Both the position numbers and the translations under genes were made by a program. Shown here piece by piece: positions 12,601 through 17,835 of a DNA stretch of 64,000 bases (the first letter of the stretch is position 1; each line of letters starts with the position of its first letter). Source of the DNA: Cytophagaceae bacterium ABcell3 (GTDB lineage Bacteria; Bacteroidota; Bacteroidia; Cytophagales; Cytophagaceae); the NCBI GenBank assembly GCA_030913385.1, contig CP133159.1:2130584-2194583 (forward strand). The letters run 5' to 3'. A model generated the notes under the pieces. It did no database searches and was not told the DNA's origin. It saw only the letters and a list, made by a program, of their open reading frames with translations.

Positions 12601-13482
12601 ATTCTCCATTTCTTCTTACCTTTTTTGCTTGTCCAAAAAAGGTAACCAAAAAAAGACACTATGGCTGAAAGGCATATTGCCACGCACTAAACGCACAGTC
12701 CCTCCCTGCCAGAAAAATGCCTTAACTGACGATTCATTGTCAAAGGCAGTTTTTAATGGCGGCATTTTTAAAAATCCGGCACCCCACAAGCCGCAATATG
12801 CCCACACCAGCCATAGAGTCCCCGCCCGCCCTTAGTAGCTACCGGGTTGCTGATTATGGAGTTATTCTTTTAGTCTACTTTTCGGGTCTTACCAGATTGG
12901 AGGTTACCGCTGGCTTTGGGTGTAGCTTTTGGGGATGGTGTTTTTAAGCTTTAAAATCAACACTATAGCTGTCTCCCCGCACCTGTTGCGGGGGCTGTTG
13001 GGGTAAAGCAGGAATGTGAATTGCTAAATATTAGGCAGGTGCCAGCGTCTAACATTAAGGTTTTAATTAGCAGAAAATCAAAACTTAACCGTCATTGCGA
13101 GGCGCAAGATAGTGGTGGGTAAAGTTCTATGGATTGAAGTTATAAGCCATTAGTTTTCTTATGAAAAAATGCCGCGGCAATCTGTTTGGGGTAATTTGTG
13201 TTGGTTGATATGTTTGTGGGGGAATAATACCAAACCTGACGATGAGATTGCTTCGTCGTGCCTCCTCACAATGACGTGGAGGGGTGAGTTGTAATAGTGG
13301 GTGTTATTATCTGGTTGATTGTAGAAACATCTTTCCTTTAATCCTGTCTATCCTTTCATCCTGCGAATCCCGGTTCAGACAGTATAATACCAGACCTGAC
13401 GATTATAGCATTATCAAATCATTAAGGTGATCACCTTGTTAATAAACCTAATGAGCTAATGTCACCTAAAGCCCATTCTCCA

Positions 13483-13526
13483 TTTTTGGTTACCTTTTTT
13501 GCTTGTCCAAAAAAGGTAACCAAAAA
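13483..13526. repeat. A-family hairpin with perfect 18-bp stem
   Basis: The left arm TTTTTGGTTACCTTTTTT (13483-13500), an 8-nt loop GCTTGTCC and the right arm 13509-13526 pair perfectly. Most A copies instead read TTTTCTTACC on the left, which limits the stem to 11 bp. Here the left arm matches the right arm fully. Confidence 0.85.
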
Positions 13527-14764
13527 AAGACACTATGGCTGAAAGGCATATTGCCACGCACTAAACGCACAGTCCCTCCCTGCCAAAAAAATGCCTTAAC
13601 TGACGATTCATTGTCAAGGGCAGTATTTTATGGCGGCATTTTTAAAAATCCGGCACCCCACAAGCCGCAATATGCCCACACCAGCCATAGAGTCCCTGCC
13701 CGCCCTTAGTAGCTACCGGACTGCTGATTATTGAGTTGTTCTTTTTGTCTACTTTTCGGCTCTTACCAGTTTGGAGGTTACCGCTTGTTTTAGCTGTTAA
13801 TTTTAGGGATGGTGTTTTAAACTCTAAAAGTAAACACTATAGCTGTCTCCCCGCACCTGTTGCGGGGGCTGTTGGGGTAAAGCAGGAATGTGAATTGCTA
13901 AATATTAGGCAGGTGCCAGCGTCTAACATTAAGGTTTTAATTAGCAGAAAATCAAAACTTAACCGTCATTGCGAGGCGCAAGATAGTGGTGGGTAAAGTT
14001 CTATGGATTGAAGTTATAAGCCATTAGTTTTCTTATGAAAAAATGCCGCGGCAATCTGTTTGGGGTAAGCGGTGTAGGTTGATTGTTTGTGGGGAATGAT
14101 ATTAGACCTTACGATTAGATTGCTTCGTCGTTCCTCCTCGCAATGACGTTGGTGTAGTGAGTTGTAGTAGTGGAGGTTATATACCAGACCTGACGATTAG
14201 AGCATCATCAAATCATTAAATTGATCCTTTATTAATAAACCTAATGAGCTAATGTCTCCTAAAGCTCATTGTCCATTTTTTCTTACCTTTTTTGCTTGTC
14301 CAAAAAAGGTAACCAAAAAAAGACACTATGGCTGAAAGGCATATTGCCACGCACTAAACGCACAGTCCCTCCCTGCCAGAAAAATGCCTTAACTGACGAT
14401 TCATTGTCAAGGGCAGTATTTTATGGCGGCATTTTTAAAAATCCGGCACCCCACAAGCCGCAATATGCCCACACCAGCCATAGAGTCCCCGCCCGCCCTT
14501 AGTAGCTACCGGACTGCTGATTATTGAGTTGTTCTTTTTGTCTACTTTTCGGCTCTTACCAGTTTGGAGGTTATCGCAGGTTTTGGTTGTTATTTTTTGG
14601 GGTGGTGTTTAAGACTCAAAAACAAACACTATAGCTGTCTCCCCGCACCTGTTGCGGGGTCTGTTTGGGTATGGTAGGATGTATTTCTTCGAATTATCAA
14701 ATCATTACATTGATCGCTTTATTATAAACCTAATGAGCTAATGTCACCTAAAGCCCATTCTCCA

Positions 14765-14808
14765 TTTTTGGTTACCTTTTTTGCTTGTCCAAAAAAGGTA
14801 ACCAAAAA
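14765..14808. repeat. Second A-family hairpin with perfect 18-bp stem
   Basis: It has the same extended stem as the copy at 13483 (arms 14765-14782 and 14791-14808). It may be a duplicate of that copy or an independent restoration of pairing. Confidence 0.85.
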
Positions 14809-15240
14809 AAGACACTATGGCTGAAAGGCATATTGCCACGCACTAAACGCACAACCCTCCCTGCCAAAAAAATGCCTTAACTGACGATTCATTGTCAAGG
14901 GCAGTATTTTATGGCGGCATTTTTAAAAATCCGGCACCCCACAAGCCGCAATATGCCCACACCAGCCATAGAGTCCCCGCCCGCCCTTAGTAGCTACCGG
15001 ACTGCTGATTATGGAGTTATTCTTTTAGTCTACTTTTCGGGTCTTACCAGATTGGAGGTTACCGCTGGCTTTGGGTGTTGGTTTTTTGATAGGTTGTAAT
15101 AACATCTATCCTTAAATCCTGTCTATCCTTTCATCCTGCGAATCCCGGTTCAGACAGTATAATACTAAACCTGACGATGAGATTGCTTCGTCGTCCTCCT
15201 CGCAATGACGGAGAGAGCTATAGTGTTGGTATATAGATTG

Positions 15241-15481: not shown

Positions 15482-15557
15482 GATCTAATAGGTAAGTTTA
15501 AGTCTTTTAACCTGGATTATGCATTAGATTTTGCCTCGCATATTTCAGGTTTAATTG

Positions 15558-15921
15558 TGGAGCCGCAGGGAGTCGAACCCTGGTCCAGGCAAGGAAATCA
15601 TTAAGCTTTCTACATGCTTAGTTACCAATTAATTGTCGGGAAGGAACTGGCTGGTAACAAACCGTATTCCTACCTTAGGTACTTAATCTCACTGTACTGT
15701 CATACCAAGCAGCACAGCCAGCTTTGCGGTCGATGTTCCGAGTTGCAAACCCGGCAAAGCAAAGGGTTCGCGGAACACATGCTACAAAATTACTTTAATT
15801 AAGCAGCAAGGGCGTAGTTTTCTTCGCCATTTATTGGTTTGAAAGTTTGTTATCAGGTAATACTTACAACACCCGGCATGCTTACTTACGACTACTCATG
15901 CTGTCAAAACCAGTCGGCCCC
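15558..15921 (-). ncRNA. ssrA: Transfer-messenger RNA (tmRNA)
   Basis: tmRNA rescues stalled ribosomes and tags the incomplete protein for proteolysis. The 364-nt gene has a tRNA-like end: the 5' GGGGCCG pairs with the 3' CGGCTCC as a 7-bp acceptor stem (one G-U), and the GGTTCGACTCC T-arm is near the 3' end. The CCA tail is not encoded (CAA follows the discriminator A). The tag frame is at 15828-15799: GGC GAA GAA AAC TAC GCC CTT GCT GCT TAA, giving GEENYALAA, like other Bacteroidota tags that begin with Gly. The 5' and 3' ends are inferred from the acceptor stem. Confidence 0.96.
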
Positions 15922-16123: not shown

Positions 16124-17835
16124 ATGGATAATTTTGTTGTTTCAGCACGTAAATACAGACCCGCAACCTTTGATACCGTTGTAGGACAGTCACATATTAC
16201 TACTACGCTTAAAAATGCCATAAAAAACAATCATTTGGCACAGGCTTTCCTCTTTTGTGGCCCAAGAGGGGTAGGAAAGACTACCAATGCCAGGATTTTG
16301 GCTAAAACCATCAACTGTCAAAACATTACGGAAGATGTAGAAGCGTGTAATGAATGTGAATCATGTACCAGCTTTAACAAAAGCGCCTCGTTTAATATCC
16401 ATGAGCTTGACGCAGCTTCAAACAACTCTGTAGACGATATCAGAAACTTGGTTGACCAGGTGCGTTACCCGCCTCACTCAGGAAAATATAAAATATATAT
16501 TATAGATGAGGTGCACATGCTGTCAAATGCAGCTTTTAATGCATTCCTGAAAACATTGGAAGAACCGCCTTCTTATGCCATTTTTATTCTGGCTACTACA
16601 GAAAAGCATAAAATTATCCCTACCATCCTGTCAAGGTGTCAAATTTTTGACTTTAACAGGATTCAGGTAAAAGATATTTCTGGACACCTCGAAAAAATTG
16701 CTGAAAAAGAAGGTATCAAAGCCGAACCGGAAGCATTGCACCTGATAGCACAAAAAGCTGATGGCGCCTTAAGAGATGCGCTTTCTATCTTTGACCTTAT
16801 TGTTACTTTTTCTTCTGATAGGAATGTTACCTACCAAACTACCATAGAAAACCTGCATATTCTGGACTATGACTACTATTTCAAAATGGTAGACTTAATG
16901 CATAGTGGCGATACAGCCAATATCCTTTTGACCTATGATGAAATTATTAGGGCAGGGTTCGATGGTCATAATTTTATTGTTGGGCTTGCAGGGCATTTAC
17001 GTAACCTGATGGTCTGTAAAGATCCTGCCACCGTTAAGCTTCTCGAGGTTTCGGAAGAAGTACAAAGGAAATATGCTGGGCAGGCCTCCTCCCTGCCAGT
17101 TTCATGGCTTATGTCTTGTTTGAGCATTGCCTCTGCATGTGATATGCAATATAAAGGGAGCAAAAATCAACGCCTTCATGTTGAACTGGCACTGATGAAG
17201 ATGGCTTATCTCGATTCAGCGCTTCAAATGGCTTCTCAGTCTTTGATCAATGGAGATGTAAAAAAAAAAATGACGACCTAAGCGAAAATGATGGAAAGGC
17301 TGCCATTTCGCCTTCGGTCAAGCAAAGGCCTGCTACAAGTGGCCTTAAAAGTACTTTAAAAATACCCTCTTTAAAGGATTTAAAAAAGGGGGTGCCCGCT
17401 CCAGTTACTGCTCAAGCTGAAGAAGAGCCGAAAGAACTTCCTGTAAACCCTTACCAACAGGAGAGTAAAGCTTTTTCTTTTGAGGATGTTAAGCGCCTTT
17501 GGGAACAGTATACCCAAGATTTCCGAAAAAAGGGAATGAAGAATGAAATAGTGGTGATGGACAGGGAATTCCGACTTGAAGAAACAAAAATAATCCTCCG
17601 ATTAGATAATGTGCTTCAGCAGGATATTCTAAACAGCTTTAGAAGTGAGCTACTAGATTTCCTACGTAAAAATCTGTGCAACAGCAGTATTATGCTGGAA
17701 CATTATATTGAACTTCCTCCTGAGAATGAGAAAAATATGCTGTATACCGATAAAGATAAATATCGGTATCTGGTTGAAAAATACCCTTTGCTGGATGAAA
17801 TGAGGGTGAGGTTGGGACTGGATGTACAATTTTAA
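16124..17835 (+). CDS. dnaX: DNA polymerase III subunits gamma and tau (A11 slippage)
   Basis: This is the clamp-loader ATPase. The N-terminal frame (385 residues, ending TAA at 17279-17281) has Walker A GPRGVGKT (46-53), a zinc cluster C65/C75/C78/C81, Walker B IIDEVH (126-131) and the SRC arginine finger (170-172). An A11 run at 17260-17270 precedes the stop by 8 nt. In the -1 frame reading stays open from the A run to the stop at 17835, giving a tau-like protein of about 570 residues. Its C-terminus (KDKYRYLVEKYP...RLGLDVQ) is typical of Bacteroidota DnaX. The zero frame gives a gamma-like short form ending VKKKMTT. Transcriptional or ribosomal slippage at the A run would make both, as known for Thermus dnaX. 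A sequencing indel cannot be excluded. The gene is divergent from ssrA. Confidence 0.93.
17260..17270 (+). promoter_or_regulatory. A11 slippery run in dnaX
   Basis: Eleven consecutive A (GTA AAA AAA AAA ATG in the zero frame) sit at the junction between the gamma frame and the tau tail frame. Gain of one A in the mRNA, or a -1 ribosomal slip, joins the two. GGAG lies 5 nt upstream of the run, and an AAGGC/GCCTT stem is possible at about 17296-17314. Confidence 0.75.

Follow-up and report, generated by a model that had tools for sequence, protein, structure and literature searches.

The dnaX gene of Cytophagaceae bacterium ABcell3 is split, as written in its assembly, by a run of 11 adenines into two reading frames. 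The question raised by this locus is whether the run is a programmed slippage site, through which one gene would provide both a short DnaX protein (gamma) and a long one (tau), or whether it reflects a sequencing error or a gene that has lost its tau product. The gene lies in the window, the whole stretch of 64,000 nucleotides that was analysed (contig CP133159.1, positions 2,130,584 to 2,194,583), and positions below refer to this stretch. An earlier note on the window had proposed a gamma/tau recoding site, probably acting by transcriptional slippage, and this proposal is strongly supported by the conservation, phases, and stops of the run in related genes.

The A11 run and the two frames of dnaX

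The elements of the locus, all of them on the + strand, are the following:

16124..17281, + strand: zero frame of dnaX, with clamp-loader domains I–III and a gamma-like product of 385 aa (ORF, Pfam, NCBIfam)
17260..17270, + strand: A11 slippery run (exact count; A9–A11 at the equivalent place in 254/297 loci)
17269..17835, + strand: C-terminal extension specific to tau, in the −1 frame (reached from mRNA with 12 or 9 A, or by a −1 ribosomal shift)
17271..17273, + strand: TGA that closes the +1 frame immediately past the run, for mRNA of 10 or 13 A
17279..17281, + strand: TAA ending the zero frame, reached from the as-written mRNA of 11 A and giving gamma

The splitting of dnaX by A11 into a gamma-like frame and a −1 tau frame is confirmed. 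From 17258 to 17281 the zero frame reads GTA AAA AAA AAA ATG ACG ACC TAA and ends 8 nt past the run, as the earlier note had it, so that the gamma-like product finishes in GDVKKKMTT. Inside the run, in-phase A_AAA_AAA heptamers start at 17260 and 17263. The zero frame matches the Pfam families DNA_pol3_delta2, DNAX_ATPase_lid, and DNA_pol3_gamma3 (residues 248–366), and the end of domain III at residue 366 bears out the claim that the run stands just after the clamp-loader domains. In NCBIfam, the 385 aa ORF covers model positions 1–371 of the 614 of PRK14971 (E 5.5e-220) and also matches TIGR02397 dnaX_nterm. A further gamma/tau model, PRK14955 (397 positions), is matched at positions 3–392 by the gamma half, with a score below the model cut-off, and as-written gamma products may have been the basis of this model.

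The −1 frame, also said to be open as far as a DnaX C-terminus, indeed contains 188 open codons between the run and the TAA stop at 17833–17835. Its part past the run (17272–17832) matches positions 453–614 of PRK14971 (E 9.2e-23, 81 bits), below the whole-protein cut-off of 685 because this part is a fragment, as expected; a Pfam search of the same part gave no match. In the comparison with relatives, the tau C-terminus matched 202 loci, and all of the alignments checked (183/183) fall in the tau frame assigned to each locus. The window gene, therefore, combines a two-ORF split with a −1 frame transition and poly-A at the transition, and, beyond domain III, it has nine or more consecutive A followed closely by stops in both non-tau frames.

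The number of A in the mRNA determines the product: with 11 A translation stops after three further codons and with 10 A at the immediate TGA, both giving gamma, whereas 12 A gives tau. Thus, the earlier expectation that a genomic run of 10 or 12 A would restore a single frame holds for A12, and also for A9, but fails for A10, which leads to the immediate TGA. The length in the window is the value of the assembly, supported by comparison with relatives. Peptides spanning the junction, which had been put forward as a check, would not discriminate between the mechanisms, since V-K-K-K-N-D-D results equally from one extra A in the mRNA and from a −1 shift of the ribosome.

The genome consists of one contig of 5.115 Mb. 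Considering either strand, it harbors five sites with at least 11 A, only the dnaX site lying within a frame of at least 80 codons, and 14 sites with exactly A10, several of them in long frames. A DnaX search of the genome found no second full dnaX; its other matches were one weak partial match and a frame of 378 codons with 40% identity, which is probably delta'. Elsewhere in this genome, a T10 run is located at G000:C1:1573692-1573703 (L378, around 1501–1512), where one + frame (416-aa ORF from 394) ends 43 codons past the run and another frame stays open for at least 499 codons; it is possibly a second homopolymer frame transition or an assembly error, and the encoded protein seems to be a secreted one with repeats. 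Just upstream of dnaX, a tmRNA gene with the tag GEENYALAA occupies 15557–15921 on the opposite (−) strand, and upstream of it lies a cluster of repeated DNA (13000–15212) containing a 300-nt unit in three copies (13436, 14229, 14717), a 210-nt unit in two copies, and inverted repeats of 44–50 nt.

Conservation, closing stops, and written product in the phylum

The comparison with related genomes that the earlier note had called for was made on 297 distinct dnaX loci, comprising the window, 80 named loci, and 216 loci from family, order, class, and phylum searches. The starting set of 320 loci and the window gave 307 matches at E 1e-20, and removal of matches below 200 bits (paralogues, fragments) and of duplicates left the 297. 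This is a non-random sample: the 80 loci are best matches, the larger searches contributed the best 30 plus hand-picked genera, and the order of the window is over-represented. A run was defined as at least 8 A within codons 340–450.

A run of A9–A11 is present at the junction in 254 of these 297 loci from the phylum of the window (A10 in 209, A9 in 29, A11 in 16); one A8 brings the total to 255, and no run of 12 A or longer occurs at the junction in any of the 297. A9–A11 is found in 73 of the 80 named loci, and among the 41 loci outside the class of the window (L240, L281–L320) the run is present in 27 and absent in 14. Runs of at least 9 A start at a median codon of 378, and the length is exactly A10 in 11 of the 17 loci with 60–70% GC. 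The run begins in phase 0, 1, or 2 in different loci, with 37 phase changes on the tree; thus, it is the nucleotide run itself that is kept, and not one fixed reading of it. As controls, the N-terminal coding part of the same genes contains two runs of A9 or longer in 300,732 bases, and the flanks contain 20 such runs of A and 13 of T in 733,476 bases. Elsewhere in the same genes, only 3 of 34 Lys-Lys-Lys triplets are pure AAA; these are the control counts of a codon-choice test on the junction Lys-Lys-Lys, of which nothing else was used, since the test is confounded by runs that can end within an AAG codon (53 loci counted "with AAG" only, largely for this reason). The site is not indispensable, because 42 of the 297 loci have no run of at least 8 A and the presence of the A9+ run changes 24 times on the tree of the 297 loci.

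Both non-tau frames are closed within 8 codons in 231 of 253 loci (138/152 with tau as written, 88/96 with tau in the −1 frame, 5/5 with tau in the +1 frame). The corresponding figure at control points in tau-as-written genes is 1027 of 5250 (20%). Frame by frame, the tau-as-written set is closed within this distance in the −1 frame in 148/152 loci and in the +1 frame in 139/152 (controls 41–47%), and the set of the window's type in the zero frame in 96/96 and in the +1 frame in 88/96 (controls 44–51%). This closure persists after thinning at 85% identity, in 98 and 91 of 100 loci and in 63 and 57 of 63, respectively. A −1 ribosomal shift needs only one other frame to be stopped, whereas mixed mRNA lengths require stops in two, and the closure of both non-tau frames therefore favours mixed mRNA lengths. 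The double stops and the narrow peak of lengths at 10 jointly provide the main argument, of a comparative kind, that mixed mRNA lengths would be at work rather than a one-way ribosomal shift. The peak is near the 9–10 bp given for the RNA–DNA hybrid in passages of PMC5009743.

The product encoded by the gene as written varies. It is tau in 152 loci (Dyadobacter, Pedobacter, Hymenobacter, and Rufibacter, among others), gamma with tau in the −1 frame in 96, including the window, and gamma with tau in the +1 frame in 5, Algoriphagus, Echinicola, and Flammeovirga being examples with gamma as written. Apart from the 42 loci without the run, one locus leaves its contig (L200, counted as "none") and another (L186, counted as "stopbefore") has a stop codon that includes the initial A of the run, which means that slippage would give no rescue. 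In a tree built with FastTree from the N-terminal part, polarity changes 38 times among 253 loci, compared with 68–88 times with shuffled labels; this count is tree-dependent and becomes 39–52 when weak branches are collapsed. Single-A differences are seen between close relatives, such as L309 (A9) and L310 (A10), or L153 (A9) and L050 (A10), and in these two pairs as well as in L087/L088 the single A swaps the as-written product between very close relatives. Such differences could be real flips or homopolymer assembly errors, and errors may be behind some of them.

The nearest relatives of the window on the tree are four loci of one genus (g10, which holds the Sporocytophaga assembly L007/L088; branch support 88). 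Three of them have tau as written with A10 (L087, L089, L090), and L088 has A11. The other 13 loci of the family (L091–L103) exhibit the frame layout of the window with A10. In 12 of these 13, the tenth A is followed by G-T and then AA, AG, or GA, compared with A-T-G-A in the window; thus, the 11th A of the window can be a substitution.

Probable slippage of RNA polymerase and its alternatives

We consider it probable that the A11 run acts as a programmed site of slippage, mainly by RNA polymerase, through which one gene would yield two DnaX proteins. While copying the run, the polymerase would slip and release mRNAs with varied numbers of A. Transcripts with 11 A, as written, or with 10 A would run into a stop no more than three codons on and so yield gamma, with the clamp-loader domains only, and those with 12 A, carrying one inserted A, would be translated in the −1 frame into tau, including its C-terminal extension. 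Slipping of the ribosome by −1 on the same adenines may also contribute. For the window organism, we infer the occurrence of slippage, its mainly transcriptional nature, the product ratio, and the roles of gamma and tau.

Tau could also be made from a uniform mRNA by programmed −1 ribosomal frameshifting on A_AAA_AAA, as in Escherichia coli dnaX. Runs of at least 9 A contain in-phase heptamers of this kind, the −1 direction is favoured (96 loci against 5 that take the +1 route), and tRNA-Lys(UUU) is the only typed tRNA-Lys of the window genome (UUU twice, CUU none; 3 of 43 Infernal tRNA hits were left untyped by ARAGORN), E. coli likewise being said in passages of PMC5009743 to have tRNA-Lys(UUU) only. 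The preference for −1 fits this alternative equally well; the idea that it speaks against transcriptional slippage was dropped, since a −1 shift equals one inserted A, the type of slip reported for Thermus. However, the heptamer needs just 6–7 A and the lengths peak at 10, the +1 frame is closed beside the run too, and a −1 shift cannot give tau in the five loci that require +1 (these include L088, whose sequence comes from a metagenome assembly and has A11 against A10 in its three congeners, and which is a homopolymer-error suspect). Moreover, no common stimulator was found. Folding after the run is near chance among the 96 window-type loci (mean z −0.25), and no common downstream RNA structure was found for this type; in the window z is +0.4, −0.6, and −1.9 for 40, 60, and 80 nt. 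Folding is a little stronger in the 152 tau-as-written loci (mean z −0.52, with 15% at z < −2), which counts against the polymerase reading. Shine–Dalgarno (SD)-like cores 6–14 nt upstream show no excess (7/96 against 5.8 expected, 10/152 against 10.0 expected), and the nearest core in the window, GGAG at 17252–17255, is 4 nt from the run rather than about 10 nt upstream. Taken together, ribosomal frameshifting seems an unlikely main source of tau at this site, though it deserves more weight than any error or gene decay.

The sequence preceding the run has features of its own. The last 60 nt show slightly stronger folding than shuffled sequences (mean z −0.61 and −0.68 in the two sets; controls −0.17 to 0.08), which also counts against the polymerase reading, and GGAG, GAGG, or AGGA cores are enriched 0–5 nt before the run (47/152 and 29/96 against 6.8 and 3.8). 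An SD-like or G-rich stimulator directly upstream was nevertheless rejected, because splitting by phase places the G peaks at first codon positions, after a stretch in which Glu, Ala, Asp, and Gly codons abound; in our reading, the G-rich stretch is an acidic linker rather than an SD signal. Usage of GAG relative to GAA is higher in this stretch than elsewhere (0.49 vs. 0.37, p 0.001), so that some nucleotide-level selection may also be at work.

The loci without the junction run also lend support to ribosomal frameshifting, since 14 of the 42 carry an in-phase A_AAA_AAA or A_AAA_AAG near the junction and three of them have z values of −3 or below. These 14 are six named Pontibacter loci and L136, with a common A7 layout, together with L151, L181, L185, L187, L210, L263, and L226. 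Past the heptamer, the −1 frame meets a stop within 5 codons in 13 of the 14 and is open for 219 in L181. The strongest folding after the heptamer is that of L151 (−5.5), L031 (−3.6), and L181 (−3.0), the other Pontibacter-type loci ranging from −1.7 to 0.1, and GGAGG stands 10 nt upstream of the heptamer in L181 and L185. Some run-less loci, thus, look like ribosomal cassettes of the E. coli type. L043, a metagenome assembly, has no A run and reads GGC GGG GGA AAG TAG at the junction (G_GGA_AAG), with the −1 frame open. L151, L181, and L185 have A_AAA_AAG at that place, L151 and L181 with strong hairpins downstream, and in these three loci and L043 ribosomal slippage may have replaced the transcriptional kind within the group. 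On the side of polymerase slippage, two further run-less loci have a displaced A10 in the later tau linker, at codon 458 in L196 and codon 575 in L127, with close stops in both other frames.

The break in the frame could instead come from a homopolymer error in sequencing or assembly, the true run being 12 A long with tau in one frame. Homopolymers are error-prone, and the nearest genus has tau as written with A10 in L087, L089, and L090, its A11 member L088 being suspect itself. Against this, A12 or longer is absent from the 297 loci, the frame pattern of the window (gamma written, −1 frame open, immediate +1 stop) is that of the 13 family loci L091–L103, and the 11th A is explicable as a substitution, 12 of these 13 loci having G-T where the window has A-T. 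An error is, therefore, very improbable, and even then the slippage site would stay, with tau as written. A real two-product switch of a known kind is much more likely than a sequencing error, because nine to eleven adenines are found at the equivalent place in most relatives examined. The broken frame would also be expected of a pseudogene, or of a true loss of tau with gamma alone being made, but 188 codons of the −1 frame are open and align with the tau C-terminus of related loci in the frame that gives tau there, the layout is repeated in 96 loci including the window, and the DnaX search of the genome brought up no other complete dnaX; we give this explanation hardly any credence.

Returning to slippage by RNA polymerase, we are somewhat inclined, with less assurance than for the window site itself, to a joint reading of the whole group. 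The switch would be old and phylum-wide, with a length near A10 under selection, a written frame almost free to drift (~38 swaps), and a site mobile along the linker; some lineages would have an E. coli-like ribosomal cassette, and a product ratio near parity would be kept instead of a default product.

Relation to known slippage and frameshifting systems

That the site has been retained in 254/297 loci through ~38 polarity changes argues strongly, on comparative grounds, for the importance of both products in this group as well; in E. coli, the importance of gamma was long debated and is called settled in passages of PMC5009743. The loci also offer a natural series for measuring slippage, spanning run lengths of 9, 10, and 11 A, every phase, and GC of about 30 to 67%, and they carry a warning for annotation, as 101 of the 297 genes seem truncated as written. 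In a literature search covering titles and the starts of abstracts, with few subscription journals, preprints, and supplements, none of the papers listed dealt with phylum-wide conservation or polarity switching, nor with E. coli-like heptamers in run-less lineages.

The systems compared here are taken as described in passages of the papers cited. Transcriptional slippage in dnaX was demonstrated experimentally in Thermus thermophilus (Larsen et al. 2000, as described in PMC1088944, PMC5009743, and PMC3711429). The window gene has in common with it a late A run, close stops in both other frames, and gamma and tau assigned to one gene; however, Thermus has A9 with tau as written and gamma by a slip, whereas the window has A11 with gamma as written. 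The −1 frameshift of E. coli dnaX (PMC5009743, PMC3711429) concerns the same gene, the same two products, and a slippery site of Lys codons, but the site is A_AAA_AAG, with an upstream SD and a downstream stem-loop, and tau is written. The reversed layout, with gamma written and a slip leading to tau, is unlike both and was already described in 2013 by Antonov et al. (PMC3711429), who report 17 two-ORF dnaX genes, propose transcriptional realignment for nine species with 10 A, and name three Chlorobi species with shorter runs. The window shares the zero-frame gamma stop, the −1 tau, and poly-A at the junction with these genes and differs in having 11 A against 10 A in the nine species; nothing on polarity switching was seen in the passages of that paper. 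A parallel in an unrelated secretion gene is tssM1 of Citrobacter rodentium (PMC4256274), in which A11 gives mRNAs with 10–15 A and 20–25% frameshifting, with slippage shown in cDNA; here too the short product is written and an inserted A restores the long one, and a Yersinia relative has the opposite polarity. The window site is real and, by comparison with relatives, functional, and it probably acts by transcriptional slippage, with the long product arising from the slip. The making of tau by recoding with poly-A in dnaX is already known, and the broader pattern across the phylum is the part worth following.
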